Source: an uncultured Nitrospirales bacterium (GTDB taxonomy: Bacteria > Nitrospirota > Nitrospiria > Nitrospirales > UBA8639). From it: 64,000 bases of DNA. Position 1 is the stretch's first letter. Each line of letters opens with the position of its first letter. The stretch is from NCBI GenBank assembly GCA_951812745.1, contig OX638327.1, positions 1,291,914 to 1,355,913 of the forward strand. Reading direction: 5' to 3'. Positions 20,091-32,027 of this stretch are shown here, one piece after another. Position numbers and translations under genes: made by a program. The notes beneath the pieces were generated by a model, which worked only from the letters and a program-made list of their open reading frames with translations, did no database searches and was not told the DNA's origin.

Positions 20091-20924
20091 ATGGCTAACA
20101 ACACGAGCCGACTGAGCCGGCGGGGATCGATCCGGTTACAGGATCGTCCGCCCAGCCTGGTCCGGCTGGACATGACCAAGCAGGTCGGCCGCAAGCAGTA
20201 CGAGAACAAACTCGCCCGGCTGCAGGTGCGCTTGAAGGAACTCTCGTTGGCCTATCAGGCCCAGGGCCGGCGTGCGGTGATTGTGCTGGAAGGGTGGGAC
20301 GCCGCGGGCAAGGGCGGCATCATTCGGCGTCTGCACTGGCCACTTGATCCGCGTGGCCTCAAAGTGTGGCCGATTGCCGCGCCGACCCCGGATGAGCTGG
20401 AACATCACTACCTGTATCGCTTCTGGACGCGCCTGCCGAAGTCCGGGCAGATCGTCGTGTTCGACCGCTCCTGGTATGGCCGGGTGCTGGTGGAGCGAAT
20501 CGAAGGCCATGCCACGACAAGCGAGTGGCAGCGGGCGTACGCCGAGATCAATGAGTTCGAGCGCCTGCTCGACGACGACGGCATCCGTCTCGTGAAGATC
20601 TTTCTGCACATTACGCCGGAGGAACAACTCGCGCGATTCCGGGCGCGCTTCAACGATCCGCTCAAGCGCTGGAAACTCTCGAGGGAAGACCTGCGCAACC
20701 GGGCCCGGTGGGCTGACTACGAGGTGGCGATAGAAGAGATGTTCCGCAAAACCTCCACCGTCCGTCGGCCGTGGATCGTGATCCCGGCCAACAACAAACC
20801 GTACGCCCGGCTGGCAGTGATCGGCGCTATCGTCAAACGACTAGCGGATGGAGTGGACCTTGCGCCGGCGCAACTCGACCCTGGCTTTGAGCAACGGGCG
20901 CGTAAGCTACTCGGTCTCTCATAG
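20091..20924 (+). CDS. ppk2: Polyphosphate kinase 2 family protein
   Basis: A 277-residue PPK2-type nucleoside phosphotransferase that uses polyphosphate to phosphorylate nucleotides. Walker A is VLEGWDAAGKGGIIRRL, followed by WYGRVLVERIEG (lid module after FDRSWY), PLKRWKLS and WADYEVAIEEMF. Both Walker motifs are intact. The class (AMP or ADP preference) cannot be fixed by eye. It stands alone and follows glmU by 138 nt. Confidence 0.9.
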   Translation: MANNTSRLSRRGSIRLQDRPPSLVRLDMTKQVGRKQYENKLARLQVRLKELSLAYQAQGRRAVIVLEGWDAAGKGGIIRRLHWPLDPRGLKVWPIAAPTPDELEHHYLYRFWTRLPKSGQIVVFDRSWYGRVLVERIEGHATTSEWQRAYAEINEFERLLDDDGIRLVKIFLHITPEEQLARFRARFNDPLKRWKLSREDLRNRARWADYEVAIEEMFRKTSTVRRPWIVIPANNKPYARLAVIGAIVKRLADGVDLAPAQLDPGFEQRARKLLGLS

Positions 20925-21215: not shown

Positions 21216-22793
21216 ATGATGAATCAACGGATACTGGAGTTGAGCGGTTTCGACGCCGCGATTTTTGACCTCGACGGGGTCATCACCAAGACCGCGGCCG
21301 TTCATGCTGCCGCGTGGAAACACTTGTTCGATGATTATCTCCGGACGCAAGCCGAACAAACCGGGGAGCCGTTTCACGCCTTCGATCCCATCAAAGACTA
21401 TTGCGCATACGTCGACGGCAAGCCCAGGTATGACGGCGTCACCAGTTTTTTGGCCTCCCGCGGCATCACGCTGCCCCATGGAGACCCCTCGGACCCGCCG
21501 GAACACGAGACCATCTGCGGGTTGGGAAATCGCAAGAACGTCCAGTTCCTGAAGACCCTTCACGAGAACGGGGTGGAGGTGTTTCCCTCGACCGTCGCGC
21601 TCATGCGATTCCTCAAGTCGCTGGGCAAAAAAATCGCCGTGGTTACGGCCAGCGAGAATGGCCAAGCCATCGTTCAAGCCGCGGGCGTGACGGATCTGTT
21701 CGAGGTCATGGTGGACGGCCGGGATGCCCGCGCCCTTCGCCTGCGAGGGAAACCGCACCCCGATACGTTTGTGCGAGCCGCAGAGAGTCTGGAGGTCCAG
21801 CCTCAACGGACCGTCGTGTGCGAAGATGCCTTAGCCGGTGTGGAGGCGGGACGAGCCGGAGGCTTCGGTCTGGTCGTGGGCCTCGACCGCGTCGGCCAGG
21901 CCGACGCCCTGCACACCCATGGCGGTGACGTGGTCGTCCCGGATTTGGAAGAACTCGTCGTCCGGGATGAAGCCGGGATCACGTGGCGCAGCGCCACGGC
22001 CTTGCCGTCCGCGCTGGATCGTTTCGACGACGCGCTTACCCGGTTGGGTCAACAACCGGTCGTGGTGTTTCTCGATTATGACGGCACCCTGACCCCGATC
22101 GTGGACCGGCCCGAGTTAGCCGTATTGGCTCAAGACGTACGCGAAGTCCTGGACGGCTTGAGTCGTCACTGTCCGGTCGGGATCATCAGTGGCCGGGACC
22201 GAAAAGACGTCACGAACCTCGTCAAGTTGAACTCGCTGATCTATGCCGGCAGCCATGGATTCGACATTGCCGGGCCTGAACACTTCGCCCTGTCCCATGA
22301 AGTCGGGACGCAATTTTCCGAAGCCCTCGATCACGCGGAGGACATGCTCCGGCCTCTCCTCGAACCTATTGCCGGGGCCTTGATCGAGCGGAAAAAATTT
22401 TCCATCGCGGTGCACTACCGCCTGGTCGATCCCGGCGAAGTCTCCAGGGTTGAAGAAGCCGTCACCCGGGTCATGGACGATTCTCCCGATCTCCGGCGCT
22501 CGGCAGGCAAGAAGGTCTTTGAAATGCAACCGCAGCTCGACTGGGACAAGGGGAAAGCCCTGTTGTGGTTGCTGGAAGGCATGAAATGGAAGGAGCACCA
22601 CTACCAGCCCGTGTATATCGGCGACGACCTGACGGACGAACACGCGTTTCGTGAGTTGGTGAATCATGGCCTGGGCATCGTGGTGGAACACGGCTCCCGC
22701 TTTTCCTCGGCCTCCTATTCATTGCAAGACCCCCGCGAAGTGAAAGAATTTCTCATGCGATTGAGTCGTCACCTGGACAGCCACACGCGATGA
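21216..22793 (+). CDS. Fused beta-phosphoglucomutase-like / trehalose-phosphatase protein
   Basis: Two HAD-type enzymes in one 525-residue chain. Residues 1-250 resemble beta-phosphoglucomutase: IFDLDGVITKTAAVHAAAW (motif I), VVTASENGQ, GKPHPDTFVRA and CEDALAGVEAG. Residues 275-520 resemble trehalose-6-phosphate phosphatase (OtsB): FLDYDGTLTPIVD, GIISGRDRKDV, AGSHGFDIAG and YIGDDLTDEHAF. The stop overlaps the start of a GH65 gene (ATGA). Domain order plus the GH65 neighbour match mycobacterial OtsB1, in which all three are one polypeptide. It probably converts beta-glucose 1-phosphate from the phosphorylase to glucose 6-phosphate; the phosphatase activity is inferred from motifs. Confidence 0.88.
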   Translation: MMNQRILELSGFDAAIFDLDGVITKTAAVHAAAWKHLFDDYLRTQAEQTGEPFHAFDPIKDYCAYVDGKPRYDGVTSFLASRGITLPHGDPSDPPEHETICGLGNRKNVQFLKTLHENGVEVFPSTVALMRFLKSLGKKIAVVTASENGQAIVQAAGVTDLFEVMVDGRDARALRLRGKPHPDTFVRAAESLEVQPQRTVVCEDALAGVEAGRAGGFGLVVGLDRVGQADALHTHGGDVVVPDLEELVVRDEAGITWRSATALPSALDRFDDALTRLGQQPVVVFLDYDGTLTPIVDRPELAVLAQDVREVLDGLSRHCPVGIISGRDRKDVTNLVKLNSLIYAGSHGFDIAGPEHFALSHEVGTQFSEALDHAEDMLRPLLEPIAGALIERKKFSIAVHYRLVDPGEVSRVEEAVTRVMDDSPDLRRSAGKKVFEMQPQLDWDKGKALLWLLEGMKWKEHHYQPVYIGDDLTDEHAFRELVNHGLGIVVEHGSRFSSASYSLQDPREVKEFLMRLSRHLDSHTR

Positions 22794-25180
22794 GCGATTG
22801 GGCATTGATCTACAACGGATTCGATCCCGCGAAGGAGCGCCTGCGCGAAACCCTCTGTACGCTGGGCAACGGATACTTTGCCACCCGCGGGGCGGCGCCC
22901 GAAGCCAACGCCGATGCCACGCATTACCCGGGGACCTACCTGGCCGGCGGGTACAACCGGTTGCAGACCGAGATCGAAGGCCGGACGATCGAGAATGAAG
23001 ATCTCGTGAACCTGCCGAATTGGTTGGTCCTCACCTTTCGCCAGCCCGGCGACGAGTGGTTCAACATTCAGGCCGTGGACCTGCTCTCCTACCAACAGAC
23101 CCTGGACCTGAAGGCCGGAGTCCTGCATCGGTCGTATCAATTTCAAGACCGCCAAGGACGAAAAACCACGGTGAGCAGCCGCCGGTTCGTCCACTTGGGC
23201 GTTCCGCACTTGGCCGGATTGGAGGTCGTGATCACCCCTGACAACTGGTCCGGCTCGTTGGAGATTCATACCGGCCTCGACGGACGGGTTCGCAACACCG
23301 GTGTGCCACGCTACGCGGCCCTGAACAGCCAGCACTTATCTCCCCTGGAAACCTCCGTGTTCGGCCATGACAAGATCTTCCTGTGTACGGAGACCACTCA
23401 ATCGAAAGTCCGCATCGCCCAAGCCGCGCGCACCGGGTTTTATCCCGATACGGCCTGGGCGGACCTGCCTCGAACTCCGGTGCAGAACCGGGACTACATC
23501 GGCCAGGACTGTACGATTTCCATGACCGAAGGACAGCCCCTGACCATTGAAAAAATCGCGTCGTTGTATACCTCTCGGGATCACGGCATTTCGGAATGCG
23601 GAGAAGAGGCCCGCGATGCCCTGGCGCACGCCGGCCGGTTCGACGAACTGCTCCGGTCACATACGCAGCACTGGGATCAGATCTGGCAGCAGTGCGACCT
23701 GGGCCTCCAGGGCGGAGAAGGCTCCCAACTCACGCTCCGGTTACATCTCTTTCACCTGCTGCAAACGGTTTCCTCGCATACGATCGAATTGGACGCGGGC
23801 ATGCCCGCGCGGGGATGGCACGGCGAGGCGTATCGGGGGCACATTTTCTGGGATGAACTGTATATCTTCCCGGTGTTGAACCTGCGATTCCCGGCCCTGA
23901 CCAAGGCGCTGCTATTGTACCGGCACCGGCGCCTCGAACAGGCCAGGCGGAACGCCAGGACGGCCGGGTTCAGCGGGGCGCTGTATCCCTGGCAAAGCGG
24001 CAGCAACGGCCGCGAAGAAAGCCAGATCCTGCACCTGAACCCCAAGTCCGGCCGATGGATCCCGGATAACAGTCTGCTTCAACGGCACGTGAATGCGGCC
24101 ATTGCCTATAACGTCTGGCAGTACGCCGAAGTCACCGACGACTGGGAGTTTCTTTCAACCCAGGGCGCGGAAATGTTCCTGGAGGTCGCCAGGTTTTGGG
24201 TCAGCGCCACCTCATACAATCCCGACAAGGAACGCTATGAGATTCTTCGGGTGATGGGACCCGATGAATACCACGATCAGTATCCGGACGCCGAGACCCC
24301 GGGCCTGAACAACAACGCGTATACCAATCTGATGGTGGTGTGGATCCTGTGCCGGGCACTGGAACTCCTGGACCGGCTCGAGCGGTCGAGCTGCACCGAG
24401 GTCCGCGACCGCCTGCACGTCAGCCCAACCGAGGTCGCCCTGTGGGAAGACATCAGCCGGAAGATGTTTGTTCCGTTTCACGAAGAGGGGATCCTGAGTC
24501 AATTCGAAGGCTATGACGCGTTGGCGGAATTCGAGTGGGAGCGCTACCGGCAACAATACGGGGACATTCACCGGCTGGACCGAATCCTCGAAGCCGAAGG
24601 GGATTCCACGAATCGCTACAAACTCTCCAAACAGGCCGACGTGCTGATGCTCTTTTATCTGTTCTCGCCGGAGGAACTGCGTGCCCTGTTCGACCGGCTG
24701 GGCTATCCGTTCCGCACGGACACCATGTCACGGAACGTGGAGTATTACTCGCGGCGGACGGCCCACGGGTCTTCCCTCAGCCGGGTGGTGCACGCCTGGG
24801 TCATGACGAGATCCGACCCGGAACTGGCCTGGGAACTGTTCAAGGACGCCTTGGGCGTGGACGTGTCCGATCTGCAAGCCGGCACCACCGCGGAGGGCAT
24901 CCATACGGGCGCCATGTCCGGGACGGTGGATCTGATGCAACGCGCCTATACGGGATGGGAAAGCAGGGACGGAACGCTTTCCTTCAATCCCTGCCTCCCG
25001 CCGAAAGTGGAAGCCCTTCACCTCCGGGTGAGATATCGCGGGCATTCCCTGGACGTGGCCGTGACCCAGGACGCGCTTCAACTCGCCTCGCGCCCGGGTC
25101 GCGCGGCCGAGATTCAAGTGTCCATCAAGGGCCAATCCCACACTCTCACGCCCGGGCACACCATCAAGACGATGCTGTAA
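22790..25180 (+). CDS. Glycoside hydrolase family 65 phosphorylase
   Basis: The 796-residue protein has the GH65 layout: an N-terminal beta-sandwich domain (about 1-270), then a helical (alpha/alpha)6 barrel with GHIFWDELYIFPVLNLRFP, the catalytic acid region VMGPDEYHDQYPD and LNNNAYTNLMVVWI, then the phosphate-binding part (YYSRRTAHGSSLSRVVHAW). The family phosphorolyses trehalose, kojibiose or maltose to give beta-glucose 1-phosphate and glucose. The beta-phosphoglucomutase-like domain encoded immediately upstream fits this product. Which disaccharide is used cannot be decided here; the trehalose-phosphatase neighbour favours trehalose. Confidence 0.92.
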   Translation: MSDWALIYNGFDPAKERLRETLCTLGNGYFATRGAAPEANADATHYPGTYLAGGYNRLQTEIEGRTIENEDLVNLPNWLVLTFRQPGDEWFNIQAVDLLSYQQTLDLKAGVLHRSYQFQDRQGRKTTVSSRRFVHLGVPHLAGLEVVITPDNWSGSLEIHTGLDGRVRNTGVPRYAALNSQHLSPLETSVFGHDKIFLCTETTQSKVRIAQAARTGFYPDTAWADLPRTPVQNRDYIGQDCTISMTEGQPLTIEKIASLYTSRDHGISECGEEARDALAHAGRFDELLRSHTQHWDQIWQQCDLGLQGGEGSQLTLRLHLFHLLQTVSSHTIELDAGMPARGWHGEAYRGHIFWDELYIFPVLNLRFPALTKALLLYRHRRLEQARRNARTAGFSGALYPWQSGSNGREESQILHLNPKSGRWIPDNSLLQRHVNAAIAYNVWQYAEVTDDWEFLSTQGAEMFLEVARFWVSATSYNPDKERYEILRVMGPDEYHDQYPDAETPGLNNNAYTNLMVVWILCRALELLDRLERSSCTEVRDRLHVSPTEVALWEDISRKMFVPFHEEGILSQFEGYDALAEFEWERYRQQYGDIHRLDRILEAEGDSTNRYKLSKQADVLMLFYLFSPEELRALFDRLGYPFRTDTMSRNVEYYSRRTAHGSSLSRVVHAWVMTRSDPELAWELFKDALGVDVSDLQAGTTAEGIHTGAMSGTVDLMQRAYTGWESRDGTLSFNPCLPPKVEALHLRVRYRGHSLDVAVTQDALQLASRPGRAAEIQVSIKGQSHTLTPGHTIKTML

Positions 25181-25230: not shown

Positions 25231-26025
25231 TTACAATCGACTCAACTCGTGCTGCGCCACGGCCGATGAGACCGCCTTCACCAACCGGTCTTTCCCGATC
25301 GGTTTCATGAGGAAATCCTTCACCCCGTCGCGGATCAGCCCCGCCAACTTTTCGGACCGGAGCACGTAGGATTGCATGTCCCGTTCCCGTTGAATCAGCA
25401 GCCATAAGAGCTTCGACGCCGCTCCGCCCAGGACCTCGACCCGTTCATGTTTGTTCCCGGCTATCCGCGCCCCCATGGCCGGATCGCCGGTGACGTCGAT
25501 CAGCAGATCCACGTTTTCGTTGCGTATCAGATTCATCGGCTCAGCCACCACCGGGATTTCGAATTCCTGCGCGAATTGTAACCCCGTGGCCCCGGGATCT
25601 TTGTCCGTGATCCCCACCACCTGCGCATCCGGCAGATGGAGGAACACGTCGAGCAGCGCCCTCCCGCCTTTGCCGGCGCCGACGATGCCGATCCGAATGG
25701 CCGAAGAGCCGGAAGCCTGATCGTCGACCATGCCCGTCAAGGCAATCAAGGGAATGTGCGGGAATTGGGATTTAAAATAATTCAGGGATCCGACACCCAA
25801 CTTCTTGTCGATATCCGTAATCACCACGTCAAGCAACAACGGATTTTCGCCTTCCTTGACCACGTCGATGGCCCGGTCTTCCGTGTCGGCCTCCAACACG
25901 TCGAACCCCGCTGTTTCCAGGGCCGTGCGCATCTCCGCGCAAATCCCGGGATCGTCCTCGATCAGCAACACGCGGCCGTTTCCCGGTTTGGAGCCGAACA
26001 TTGCAGCAGTTTTAGGTTCAGTCAT
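25231..26025 (-). CDS. Receiver-domain protein with inserted Rossmann domain
   Basis: 264 residues. Residues 18-100 are a response-regulator receiver start: VLLIEDDPG (acidic pair 24-25), VVITDID with phosphoacceptor Asp at 71, and LIALTG with the switch Thr at 97. Instead of continuing, a nucleotide-binding segment follows with IRIGIVGAGKGGRALLDVF (110-128), VVGITDKDP and VDLLIDVTGDPAMG. After it (about 228-260) comes GLIRDGVKDFLMKPIGKDRL, with Lys at 241, the missing last part of a receiver. The Rossmann domain thus appears nested between receiver strands 4 and 5. There is no DNA-binding output domain. A strong AAGGAGGG site precedes the ATG. It is a lone gene; a role in NAD(H)-linked signalling is speculation. 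Confidence 0.8.
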   Translation of the reverse strand: MTEPKTAAMFGSKPGNGRVLLIEDDPGICAEMRTALETAGFDVLEADTEDRAIDVVKEGENPLLLDVVITDIDKKLGVGSLNYFKSQFPHIPLIALTGMVDDQASGSSAIRIGIVGAGKGGRALLDVFLHLPDAQVVGITDKDPGATGLQFAQEFEIPVVAEPMNLIRNENVDLLIDVTGDPAMGARIAGNKHERVEVLGGAASKLLWLLIQRERDMQSYVLRSEKLAGLIRDGVKDFLMKPIGKDRLVKAVSSAVAQHELSRL

Positions 26026-26177
26026 AATGACCCTCCTTGATAAAAAGTCCCCTGATGACTTGACCCTTCCCGCACCGCGTCCCGTGTCGAGGGACCGGGC
26101 CTTCGGTTGTCCGCCCCCGTCGCATGCCTCGACCGTTCACGCGCGGAAAGGATCCGGTTTCGTGATCACGAAAGAAA

Positions 26178-29377: not shown

Positions 29378-29468
29378 ACATTGTATTTTATAGTCTTATA
29401 TCAACTCAGTAAGCTTACTTTTTTCATGACCTGACTTCATGCCTTTCCCCAGCAGGAGGGAATTGAAG

Positions 29469-32027
29469 ATGAAACCCAAGATGTCGATGATGCTTGTTGT
29501 CGGCCTGTTCGTGCTGGCCGGCGTGTTTTCCGATGCGCGTCTTGCCCTGGCGCAGACGCAGGAAGCTTGTCCGCTCCCTTCCGGCGTGACTCTTCCTGAC
29601 CCACCGAGTACAACGGCGCAACAGGTGGAAGACGGCAGCGCCAGCCTGATGGACTTCGCGCTCGCCGCCAGCGATCAATTCAAGGGCTTGGGAACACTAT
29701 CTCTGGAACAAGGCCTGTACTTTGGATGTCTCATCAGGCAGGAGGGGGGGCCTTGGCGTTCCGGTTCCACCTACCTCGTACAACTGTCGCTAGACGGCAG
29801 AGACGGCAGGGTGTTCGTCCACACGAAGGACATGGCCTTGGCTGGCAGGAAGCTCAATCCCTTGATCTATGCAGCGATCCTTGACGCATTGGAAATCAAC
29901 CCGGCCGACCTGGCCAACCCTGCTACCGCCTTCCCCGCCTTGACTACCGCCATAGCCGGGAACGGTGGAGCGTTCAATGTTCCCAATGTCCCGGGCGCCT
30001 CCGGCTATGCCACTGCATTTTTGTCACCGACTACAGGGGTCCCGTTCGTCTTGCTCGCCGGATTCGATCTCACCTCCTCCCCTCACTTGGCTCAAGAAAA
30101 AATCGATTACGGCGACCCGGCCATTACTGCCAGTGAAGTGGTGGACCGCAGAACCTTGAAAGCCTTCGTCGAGGAAGCGGGGAATTATGTCCTTGATCTC
30201 CAGAGGAGCGGAGATCTGGCCGCTGCCTCGAAGATCCGGGTCGCCTTGCGAGATCCGAACGGGCCCTGGAGACACGATAACGTGTATCTCTACACGCTGG
30301 ACCTTACCAGCAACATCATCCTGTTTCACGGAGCGAATCCGGACAAATACGAGCTGCGACCTCTGGAACCGACTGTCGAAGTCCGCTTTGCCGATGGTAC
30401 CGAAGGGTTCATTCTTCCGCGGGTCCTCGACGCGGCGATAGACAACCCGAAGGAAGGCGGCTTCGTGGAGTATTTCTTCGACGATCCCACCGACCCCAAC
30501 GACAGCAACGACACCCCCAAGGTAGGCTACGCCCGCCAGTTCACCGGTGGATACATGAGGCCGGACGGAAGCGTAATTCCAGTCAACTTCATCGTCGGGT
30601 CGGGCTTTTATCAGAGTTCAGCCAACGTGGTTGCCGCGCGCCAAAACACGGTGATCAAGTCCGTGCTGCCGCAGGTCATGCGGGCCATGACCGCCAGCAC
30701 GGTGGATGCCGTCTCGGGCCGCATCCAGCAGGCCACTTCCGGTGCCCCGCCGGCCAAAGGGTTCAGCCTGGGCGGCGCCTCCACGCTTGCCGATGCCCTG
30801 CTGGCGAACGGGCGGGCCCTTGGGAACGGCTCGTTCGACCTCAGCCGGCTGCTCGCGGGCTCGTCCTTCACCCTGCCGCTCAACGCCGCGGGCACCGGGG
30901 GCAGCGGCCCGTTCGGGAACATGACGCTCTGGGGAAGCGGGGACTACCGCAACTTCTCCGGCGGCAACTCGCAGACCATGACCTACGACGGCGACGTGGT
31001 AAGCGCCAATCTCGGGGTCGATACCAGGCTGAGCGCGGACCTGCTGGCGGGGGTGTCGGTGGCGTGGGCGCGAGGAGCCGTGGATTATACGGACTCCGCG
31101 CTGACCGGCGAATCCACGAACACCCTGACGAGCATCAATCCCTACGTGGGCTGGCAGGCCCCGAGTGGCATGAACCTGTGGGCCACGGCCGGCTACGGCT
31201 GGGGCGAGGTGGAGATCGATGATCCCGCGGCGGACACGCAAGCGAGCGACCTGTCGCAGCAGATGGTCGCGGTAGGCGTGAACGGGCCGCTGGTGTCCAG
31301 CGATCAGCTCATTGAAGGCGGCACCACGAGCCTGCGGCTGAAAGGCGAAACCGCGTTCACGTGGGCCGATATCGATGGGGCCGGGACGATCGAAGCCGTG
31401 AACTTGAATGCCAGCCGGCAGCGGCTGATGTTCGAAGGACTCCACGTCCAGACACTCGCCTCGGGGGCCACCCTCACCCCCTCGGTCGAAATGGGCATGC
31501 GGTATGACGGCGGGGACGGCGACACCGGCCACAGCCTCGAGATCGGGGGCGGCCTGCGGTATGCCGATCCGGCCACGGGGCTGACCGTCGAAGGCCGGGC
31601 CCGCACCGTGCCGGTGCATAGCGGCGATTACCGGGAGTGGGGCGTGAGCGGCTTGGTGCGGCTCGACCCGGGCGCGGCAGGTATGGGGCTCGCGCTCACC
31701 GTGCAGCCGGCCTGGGGCCAGACGGCCAGCGGGGTGCAACGGTTGTGGGAGACCGGCATGACCCAAGGCTCGGCCCCAGCCAACCAGGCGGCCGGGCGCG
31801 TGAACGCACGGATCGCCTACGGCATCGGCACCACGTGGGGTGGCCAGGGCGTGCTGACGCCCTACACCGACGTGTCGCTGTCCGGGGAAGGGTCCCGGCG
31901 CCTGAGCCTCGGCGGGCAATTCAACATCGGCTCAGCGGTGAGGATGAGCCTGGAAGGCGCTCACAGCCGGCCGGCGCGCGGCCTCACCAACCACGGCGTC
32001 ATGCTGCGTAGCGACCTGAACTGGTAG
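29469..32027 (+). CDS. Autotransporter with Cache-like passenger
   Basis: About 852 residues. A Sec signal peptide (MKPKMSMMLVVGLFVLAGVF, cleavage after ALA) is followed by two Cache-like sensor units. The first is around residues 30-110 (GPWRSGSTYLVQLSLDG), the second around 220-390 (GPWRHDNVYLYTLDL, then GGFVEYFFDDP, then FIVGSGFY), with the order of an sCache_2 domain. From about residue 480 a glycine- and aromatic-rich autotransporter beta-barrel runs to the C-terminal Trp (NMTLWGSGDYRNFSGG at its start, MLRSDLNW at its end). Cache units usually sense small ligands in the periplasm, so here one may be displayed outside the cell. AGGAGG lies 11 nt before the ATG. Ligand and role are unknown. 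Confidence 0.75.
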   Translation: MKPKMSMMLVVGLFVLAGVFSDARLALAQTQEACPLPSGVTLPDPPSTTAQQVEDGSASLMDFALAASDQFKGLGTLSLEQGLYFGCLIRQEGGPWRSGSTYLVQLSLDGRDGRVFVHTKDMALAGRKLNPLIYAAILDALEINPADLANPATAFPALTTAIAGNGGAFNVPNVPGASGYATAFLSPTTGVPFVLLAGFDLTSSPHLAQEKIDYGDPAITASEVVDRRTLKAFVEEAGNYVLDLQRSGDLAAASKIRVALRDPNGPWRHDNVYLYTLDLTSNIILFHGANPDKYELRPLEPTVEVRFADGTEGFILPRVLDAAIDNPKEGGFVEYFFDDPTDPNDSNDTPKVGYARQFTGGYMRPDGSVIPVNFIVGSGFYQSSANVVAARQNTVIKSVLPQVMRAMTASTVDAVSGRIQQATSGAPPAKGFSLGGASTLADALLANGRALGNGSFDLSRLLAGSSFTLPLNAAGTGGSGPFGNMTLWGSGDYRNFSGGNSQTMTYDGDVVSANLGVDTRLSADLLAGVSVAWARGAVDYTDSALTGESTNTLTSINPYVGWQAPSGMNLWATAGYGWGEVEIDDPAADTQASDLSQQMVAVGVNGPLVSSDQLIEGGTTSLRLKGETAFTWADIDGAGTIEAVNLNASRQRLMFEGLHVQTLASGATLTPSVEMGMRYDGGDGDTGHSLEIGGGLRYADPATGLTVEGRARTVPVHSGDYREWGVSGLVRLDPGAAGMGLALTVQPAWGQTASGVQRLWETGMTQGSAPANQAAGRVNARIAYGIGTTWGGQGVLTPYTDVSLSGEGSRRLSLGGQFNIGSAVRMSLEGAHSRPARGLTNHGVMLRSDLNW

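Follow-up and report, generated by a model that had tools for sequence, protein, structure and literature searches.

A predicted receiver interrupted by a Rossmann module homologous to a kinase input half in an uncultured Nitrospirales bacterium

The nested gene, its parts and its distribution

The window (the whole stretch of DNA analysed, 64,000 nucleotides) carries on its minus strand a complete gene for a protein of 264 amino acids (26025 to 25231), with an ATG start codon and a stop codon. A Shine-Dalgarno sequence, AAGGAGGG, is located at 26031-26038, five bases upstream of the ATG. Other genes of the window include two at 21216-25180 (plus strand) that overlap by 4 bases. The product of one (525 aa) combines a HAD hydrolase with a trehalose-phosphatase domain in a single fusion, and that of the other (796 aa) is GH65 phosphorylase-like; upstream of them, at 20091-20924, lies a PPK2 gene. 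A protein of 862 aa with an autotransporter β-domain is encoded at 29439-32027 (plus strand).

As had been noticed at the level of the letters themselves, the ORF is predicted to encode a split receiver; the insert counts 122 residues. The parts of the protein are given below (RR-HMM, a regulator profile built solely from 27 stand-alone regulators; HK-HMM, a profile of the related kinases).

25231..26025, minus strand: nested receiver/Rossmann protein, 264 aa; full-length relatives 57-97% identical
25978..26025, minus strand: N-terminal tail, residues 1-16; common to stand-alone regulators (M.E.KTAAMFGG)
25732..25977, minus strand: receiver part 1, residues 17-98; β1-α1-β2-α2-β3-α3-β4; PF00072; RR-HMM 100 bits
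25702..25731, minus strand: linker, residues 99-108; dN/dS 0.69
25420..25701, minus strand: Rossmann domain, residues 109-202; PF01408; HK-HMM 152 bits
25339..25419, minus strand: signalling helix, residues 203-229; gapless alignment to HisKA-type kinases
25234..25338, minus strand: receiver part 2, residues 230-264; RR-HMM 108-143

The N-terminal tail opens with MTEPKTAAMFGS (residues 1-12, 25990-26025, minus strand). Receiver part 1 contains E23-D24, D71 and T97, and receiver part 2 consists of the end of α4, β5 with F238 and K241-P242, α5 and the C-terminal tail.

A search for other proteins with the same domain order, as proposed when the sequence was first read, showed that it recurs across genera: the nested order was identified in 14 of the 49 genomes of the family and in five of its ten genera. 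Full-length relatives from the same genus are present in eight further genomes (75-97% identity), five genomes of that genus being without the nested gene. Genome G061 carries a copy that is 57% identical, and more distant copies (39-43%) were found in G061, G097, G093, G065 and G039. An order-mate belonging to another family (G280) has a copy that is readable to residue 229 and masked beyond. No full-length match outside these groups was detected in a sample of 296 genomes of the phylum. The arrangement, carried by a family of marine Nitrospira-like bacteria, is real and conserved; an assembly or frameshift artefact is ruled out by 15 complete copies in 14 family genomes together with the part-masked copy of G280.

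Among ten orthologues, dN/dS was 0.05 for the N-terminal tail, 0.17 for the first receiver part, 0.69 for the linker, 0.22 for the Rossmann domain, 0.17 for the helix and 0.14 for the second receiver part. Purifying selection acts on every coding part, with the linker as the sole relaxed segment and the N-terminal tail as the most constrained part. This tail, which also occurs in stand-alone regulators, is perhaps a target-binding motif. In two nested proteins (L042:1247-2119 of G061 and L046:4938-5810 of G039), its place is taken by a hydrophobic helix that probably spans the membrane and is followed by basic residues.

A receiver in two pieces and a kinase-like insert

Pfam analysis of the protein placed GFO_IDH_MocA at residues 110-176 and Response_reg at 19-115, the latter with one more stretch elsewhere. 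Removal of residues 103-222 in silico produced a single Response_reg match (profile 1-110/111; 55.9 vs 48.1 bits). The best excision, of residues 108-229, left a contiguous receiver and raised the regulator-HMM score from 124 to 139 bits; 122 residues were taken out in all seven top-scoring excisions. The RR-HMM matches the window protein twice (HMM 1-116 and 108-143), and such a two-piece match was obtained for 15 of the 15 complete nested proteins, the first piece reaching HMM ~104-116 and the second, C-terminal piece beginning at 104-108 (the masked sixteenth protein, of G280, lies outside this count). The likeness of the C-terminal tail to a receiver is not due to chance: it scores 23.5 bits, whereas the best of 2000 shuffles reached 6.3 and none attained the real score. 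The complete β1-β5 receiver sequence profile (PF00072) is thereby covered, in two pieces.

The two-piece match and the gain in score on excision bear out the sequence-only reading, in which a Rossmann domain separated strands 4 and 5 of a receiver. The site can be refined, with entry in the β4-α4 loop and exit inside α4, so that the insert is placed by alignment at the start of α4. The nature of the insert was right in part: it contains a Rossmann domain, but rather than a free one it is an entire N-terminal sensor with its signalling helix, homologous to that of a sensor kinase whose gene adjoins the stand-alone regulator in relatives. The HK-HMM matches every complete nested protein once (HMM 4-127 of 344, 147-174 bits), stopping ~9-10 residues ahead of the kinase phospho-His. 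By these matches and the 122-residue excision, the insert is the counterpart of the entire N-terminal input half of a kinase of this type. HisKA and HATPase_c were absent from the nested protein on Pfam analysis, and the kinase match stops before the H-box. Residues 203-229 align with the linker helix of the kinases and the start of DHp helix 1 ('EKLAG'), and in the sequence alignment this kinase-type helix continues without a gap into receiver α4.

The 'GIVGAGKGG' motif on which a NAD(P)-type domain had been proposed is invariant in form in 16 of 16 relatives, as are GxGxGG (116-121 in the window protein) and Asp141, which closes β2 (NAD-type). From this motif, the ligand is probably NAD(H). 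The PF01408 match scores 32-35 bits, over the family cut-off of 24. The EKP motif is a feature of the Gfo/Idh/MocA oxidoreductase family; here VLGGAASK stands where a VLCEKP-type sequence is expected, with GGAAS in place of EKP, and Pfam detected neither a C-terminal catalytic domain nor any further domain in the 264 residues. The nucleotide-binding fold and GxGxxG are shared with the N-terminal domain of Gfo/Idh/MocA proteins and the Rossmann domain of acetaldehyde dehydrogenase (1nvm), whereas the EKP motif and the catalytic domain of these enzymes are not. By these features, the nested protein is predicted to be neither a kinase nor a dehydrogenase.

Structure prediction, proposed beforehand as the means of seeing whether both pieces form one receiver fold, gave a partial answer. 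AF2 was run twice with eight close sequences as input (mean pLDDT 57 and 59), and receiver β1-β4 and the Rossmann fold were present, with pLDDT mostly 50-80 in receiver part 1 and up to ~90 in the Rossmann domain. Residues 217-264 were largely below 50 (~30 in the C-terminal segment) and β5 was not formed with these eight close sequences; since this region is uninformative in the models, the complete receiver fold rests on sequence. Foldseek analysis of the second model retrieved the Rossmann domains of acetaldehyde dehydrogenase and Gfo/Idh proteins and, separately, receivers such as DivK; there was no convincing match to the whole nested protein.

Relation to a regulator-kinase gene pair

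Both halves of the nested protein are homologous to neighbouring genes in many relatives of the order, one for a 144-aa single-domain regulator and the other for a Rossmann–HisKA–HATPase kinase of ~345-390 aa. The stand-alone regulators of the Nitrospirales (~144 aa, PF00072, e.g. L053:3264-3698) are ~40-53% identical to the nested protein over residues 1-103 and have in common with it both tails, the strands, the acid pair, D71, T97, the aromatic switch and K-P. Unlike it, they are uninterrupted, possess a canonical RMPK.NG loop and are encoded next to a Rossmann kinase. The kinases (e.g. L053:3851-4996) share the Rossmann domain and signalling helix with the nested protein, gapless and with ~45% identity, but run on into the H-box and ATPase where the nested protein runs on into receiver α4. 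Pfam assigned HisKA and HATPase_c to these kinases, together with a weak GFO_IDH_MocA match just below the family cut-off.

In most of the pair operons inspected, the Rossmann kinase is followed by a membrane kinase and then by a small protein. In the one operon scanned with Pfam (L053), the membrane kinase is of the dCache-HAMP-PAS type and the small protein matches Tll0287-like, a family identified in recent work as a c-haem, NO-sensor-like Cache domain (PMC12889525). Of the four small proteins read, two bear CXXCH (L045 and L058); the other two are truncated where their stretches end. This arrangement of regulator, Rossmann kinase, membrane kinase and Tll0287-like protein (L045:3274-8001, L050, L053, L058) is possibly a NAD and haem/NO sensing system of the Nitrospirales.

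Nested and intact pair genes occur together in G093, G039 and G065. The regulator-kinase pair was not detected in the genus of the window, nor was a clear orthologue of the dCache kinase of the pair operons (best matches 28-29%). Trees built for each half placed the nested proteins near the regulator and kinase families. Unforced, they do not put all nested members in one clade; a single nested clade is compatible with the data for each half, since it was not rejected (p-AU 0.43 and 0.35), and independent origins are conceivable. The two receiver pieces complement each other almost exactly, and for this reason we favour a single insertion over two deletions in a tandem array.

Response regulators are normally modular: receivers are joined in series to other domains, and a separate kinase carries the sensor. 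What appears new here, judged by homology, is a protein whose parts correspond to two adjacent genes of related genera, a kinase input module lying inside the switch helix of a regulator and being kept there across genera. A non-exhaustive search of the open-access literature on receiver insertions and Rossmann/NAD kinases found no precedent.

Receiver active site and proposed mode of action

The window protein keeps E23-D24, D71, T97, F238 (the aromatic switch position) and K241-P242. The acid pair had been read as Asp24-Asp25; alignment to relatives gives E23-D24 instead, like the E-D pairs of PhoB/OmpR-type receivers, while D71, T97 and K241 are at the positions first given. By its defining residues and profile the protein is receiver-like, yet its β3-α3 loop is off the canonical pattern. 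The RMPK.NG loop is changed in all 16 nested proteins and shorter by two residues; in the window protein it reads DIDKKLGVG, without the conserved proline of receivers. The second acid is lost in L043 of G061 (D24G) and the phospho-Asp in L041 of G093 (D71N), the nested frame being retained in both. An altered loop in every member and two members without a phosphorylation residue indicate that phosphorylation may be dispensable; in the window protein these residues are intact, so that its main input may still be phosphorylation in the usual way. From these sequences, a sensor-driven switch seems at least as likely as a phosphorylation-driven one.

We know of no insert of the nested kind in the atypical or pseudo-receiver FrzS. 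FrzS (PMC1974792) has a receiver fold with an altered active site, as do some nested members; it is without the phospho-Asp, but D71 is retained in the majority of nested members.

The reading that we prefer, with a confidence close to even, is that of a chimeric single-domain regulator with ligand-to-α4 coupling through a kinase-derived helix. In this reading, the sensor part (Rossmann domain plus signalling helix) of a kinase of the type encoded next to the stand-alone regulators would have entered a receiver of that regulator type where α4 starts, with the kinase core (His and ATPase) left out. In such kinases, one expects the sensor to exert its effect via the helix that leads up to the His. 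The Rossmann domain would bind a dinucleotide, most likely NAD(H), and the bound state would shift or twist the long helix, as in the kinase. Because the signalling helix is continuous with α4, the shift could reach α4 and set its position and that of the α4-β5-α5 output face (T97/F238 switch), occupancy thereby replacing, or gating, phosphorylation of D71. In VanR, activation of the receiver involves movement of α4 and of the β4-α4 loop (PMC8329863), and they are likewise discussed as moving parts of receiver activation for CckA/NtrC (PMC9981736). Output would pass to a putative partner via the retained regulator surface, of which the conserved tails at both ends form part. A more specific proposal, which we put forward tentatively, is a natural domain-insertion switch: the sensor and helix of the partner-type kinase would have been spliced in frame into α4, and binding of a metabolite, NAD(H), would directly set the output face, so that a single protein would serve as a 'one-component receiver' in no need of a kinase.

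An ordinary phosphorylated regulator, in which an unlinked kinase acts on D71 and the Rossmann domain is an effector (output) moved by α4 upon phosphorylation, with a change for example in nucleotide binding or dimerisation, is rather unlikely. The active-site residues are intact throughout the genus of the window, and the ~17 HATPase_c places in its own genome could supply a kinase, so that phosphorylation by another kinase is possible. However, the insert is homologous to an input module of kinases, not to an output domain; the canonical β3-α3 loop is gone in all members, and two have lost a key residue. In addition α1, the usual kinase-docking helix of receivers, agrees with the regulator consensus by no more than 41%, compared with 85% self-conservation, though other surface helices diverge similarly. 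A pseudo-receiver serving as scaffold or decoy, no longer switching but keeping its partner-binding surfaces as a competitor or anchor, would agree with the degenerate residues of L043 and L041, the hydrophobic N-terminal helices of L042 and L046, and the coexistence of nested and intact pair genes in three genomes. We regard it as unlikely, since absence of a detected pair leaves no competitor target in the genus of the window, where the gene is nevertheless constrained throughout.

Packing of the C-terminal segment on the Rossmann domain, with no complete receiver formed, is very improbable. AF2 did not form β5, but at a pLDDT of ~30 the models carry no information there, and in every complete member the segment, KP motif and tail included, has homology to receiver α4-β5-α5 and is constrained. 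Least credible, with hardly any weight given to it, is a Gfo/Idh/MocA-type dehydrogenase under phosphorylation control: PF01408 is matched, but over the N-terminal Rossmann part only, with GGAAS for EKP and no catalytic domain behind it.

Under the preferred reading of ligand-to-α4 coupling, a small molecule may flip the switch without a kinase, as a putative function, and bacteria related to nitrite oxidisers may have an input that senses NAD(H). Provided that the coupling through the helix is real, the protein would be a natural counterpart of the allosteric domain insertions built by protein engineers, and would allow a direct test of whether the position of α4 alone, without phosphate, drives receiver output. 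No conserved neighbour gene pointing to a target was found by eye around the nested gene.

The genus of the window keeps another Rossmann kinase, of the HisKA_3 type. In the own genome of the window its gene adjoins a response regulator frame of 237 aa (G000:C1:1071160-1072558, L051), and it is the only other Rossmann kinase found there with the nested protein as query.
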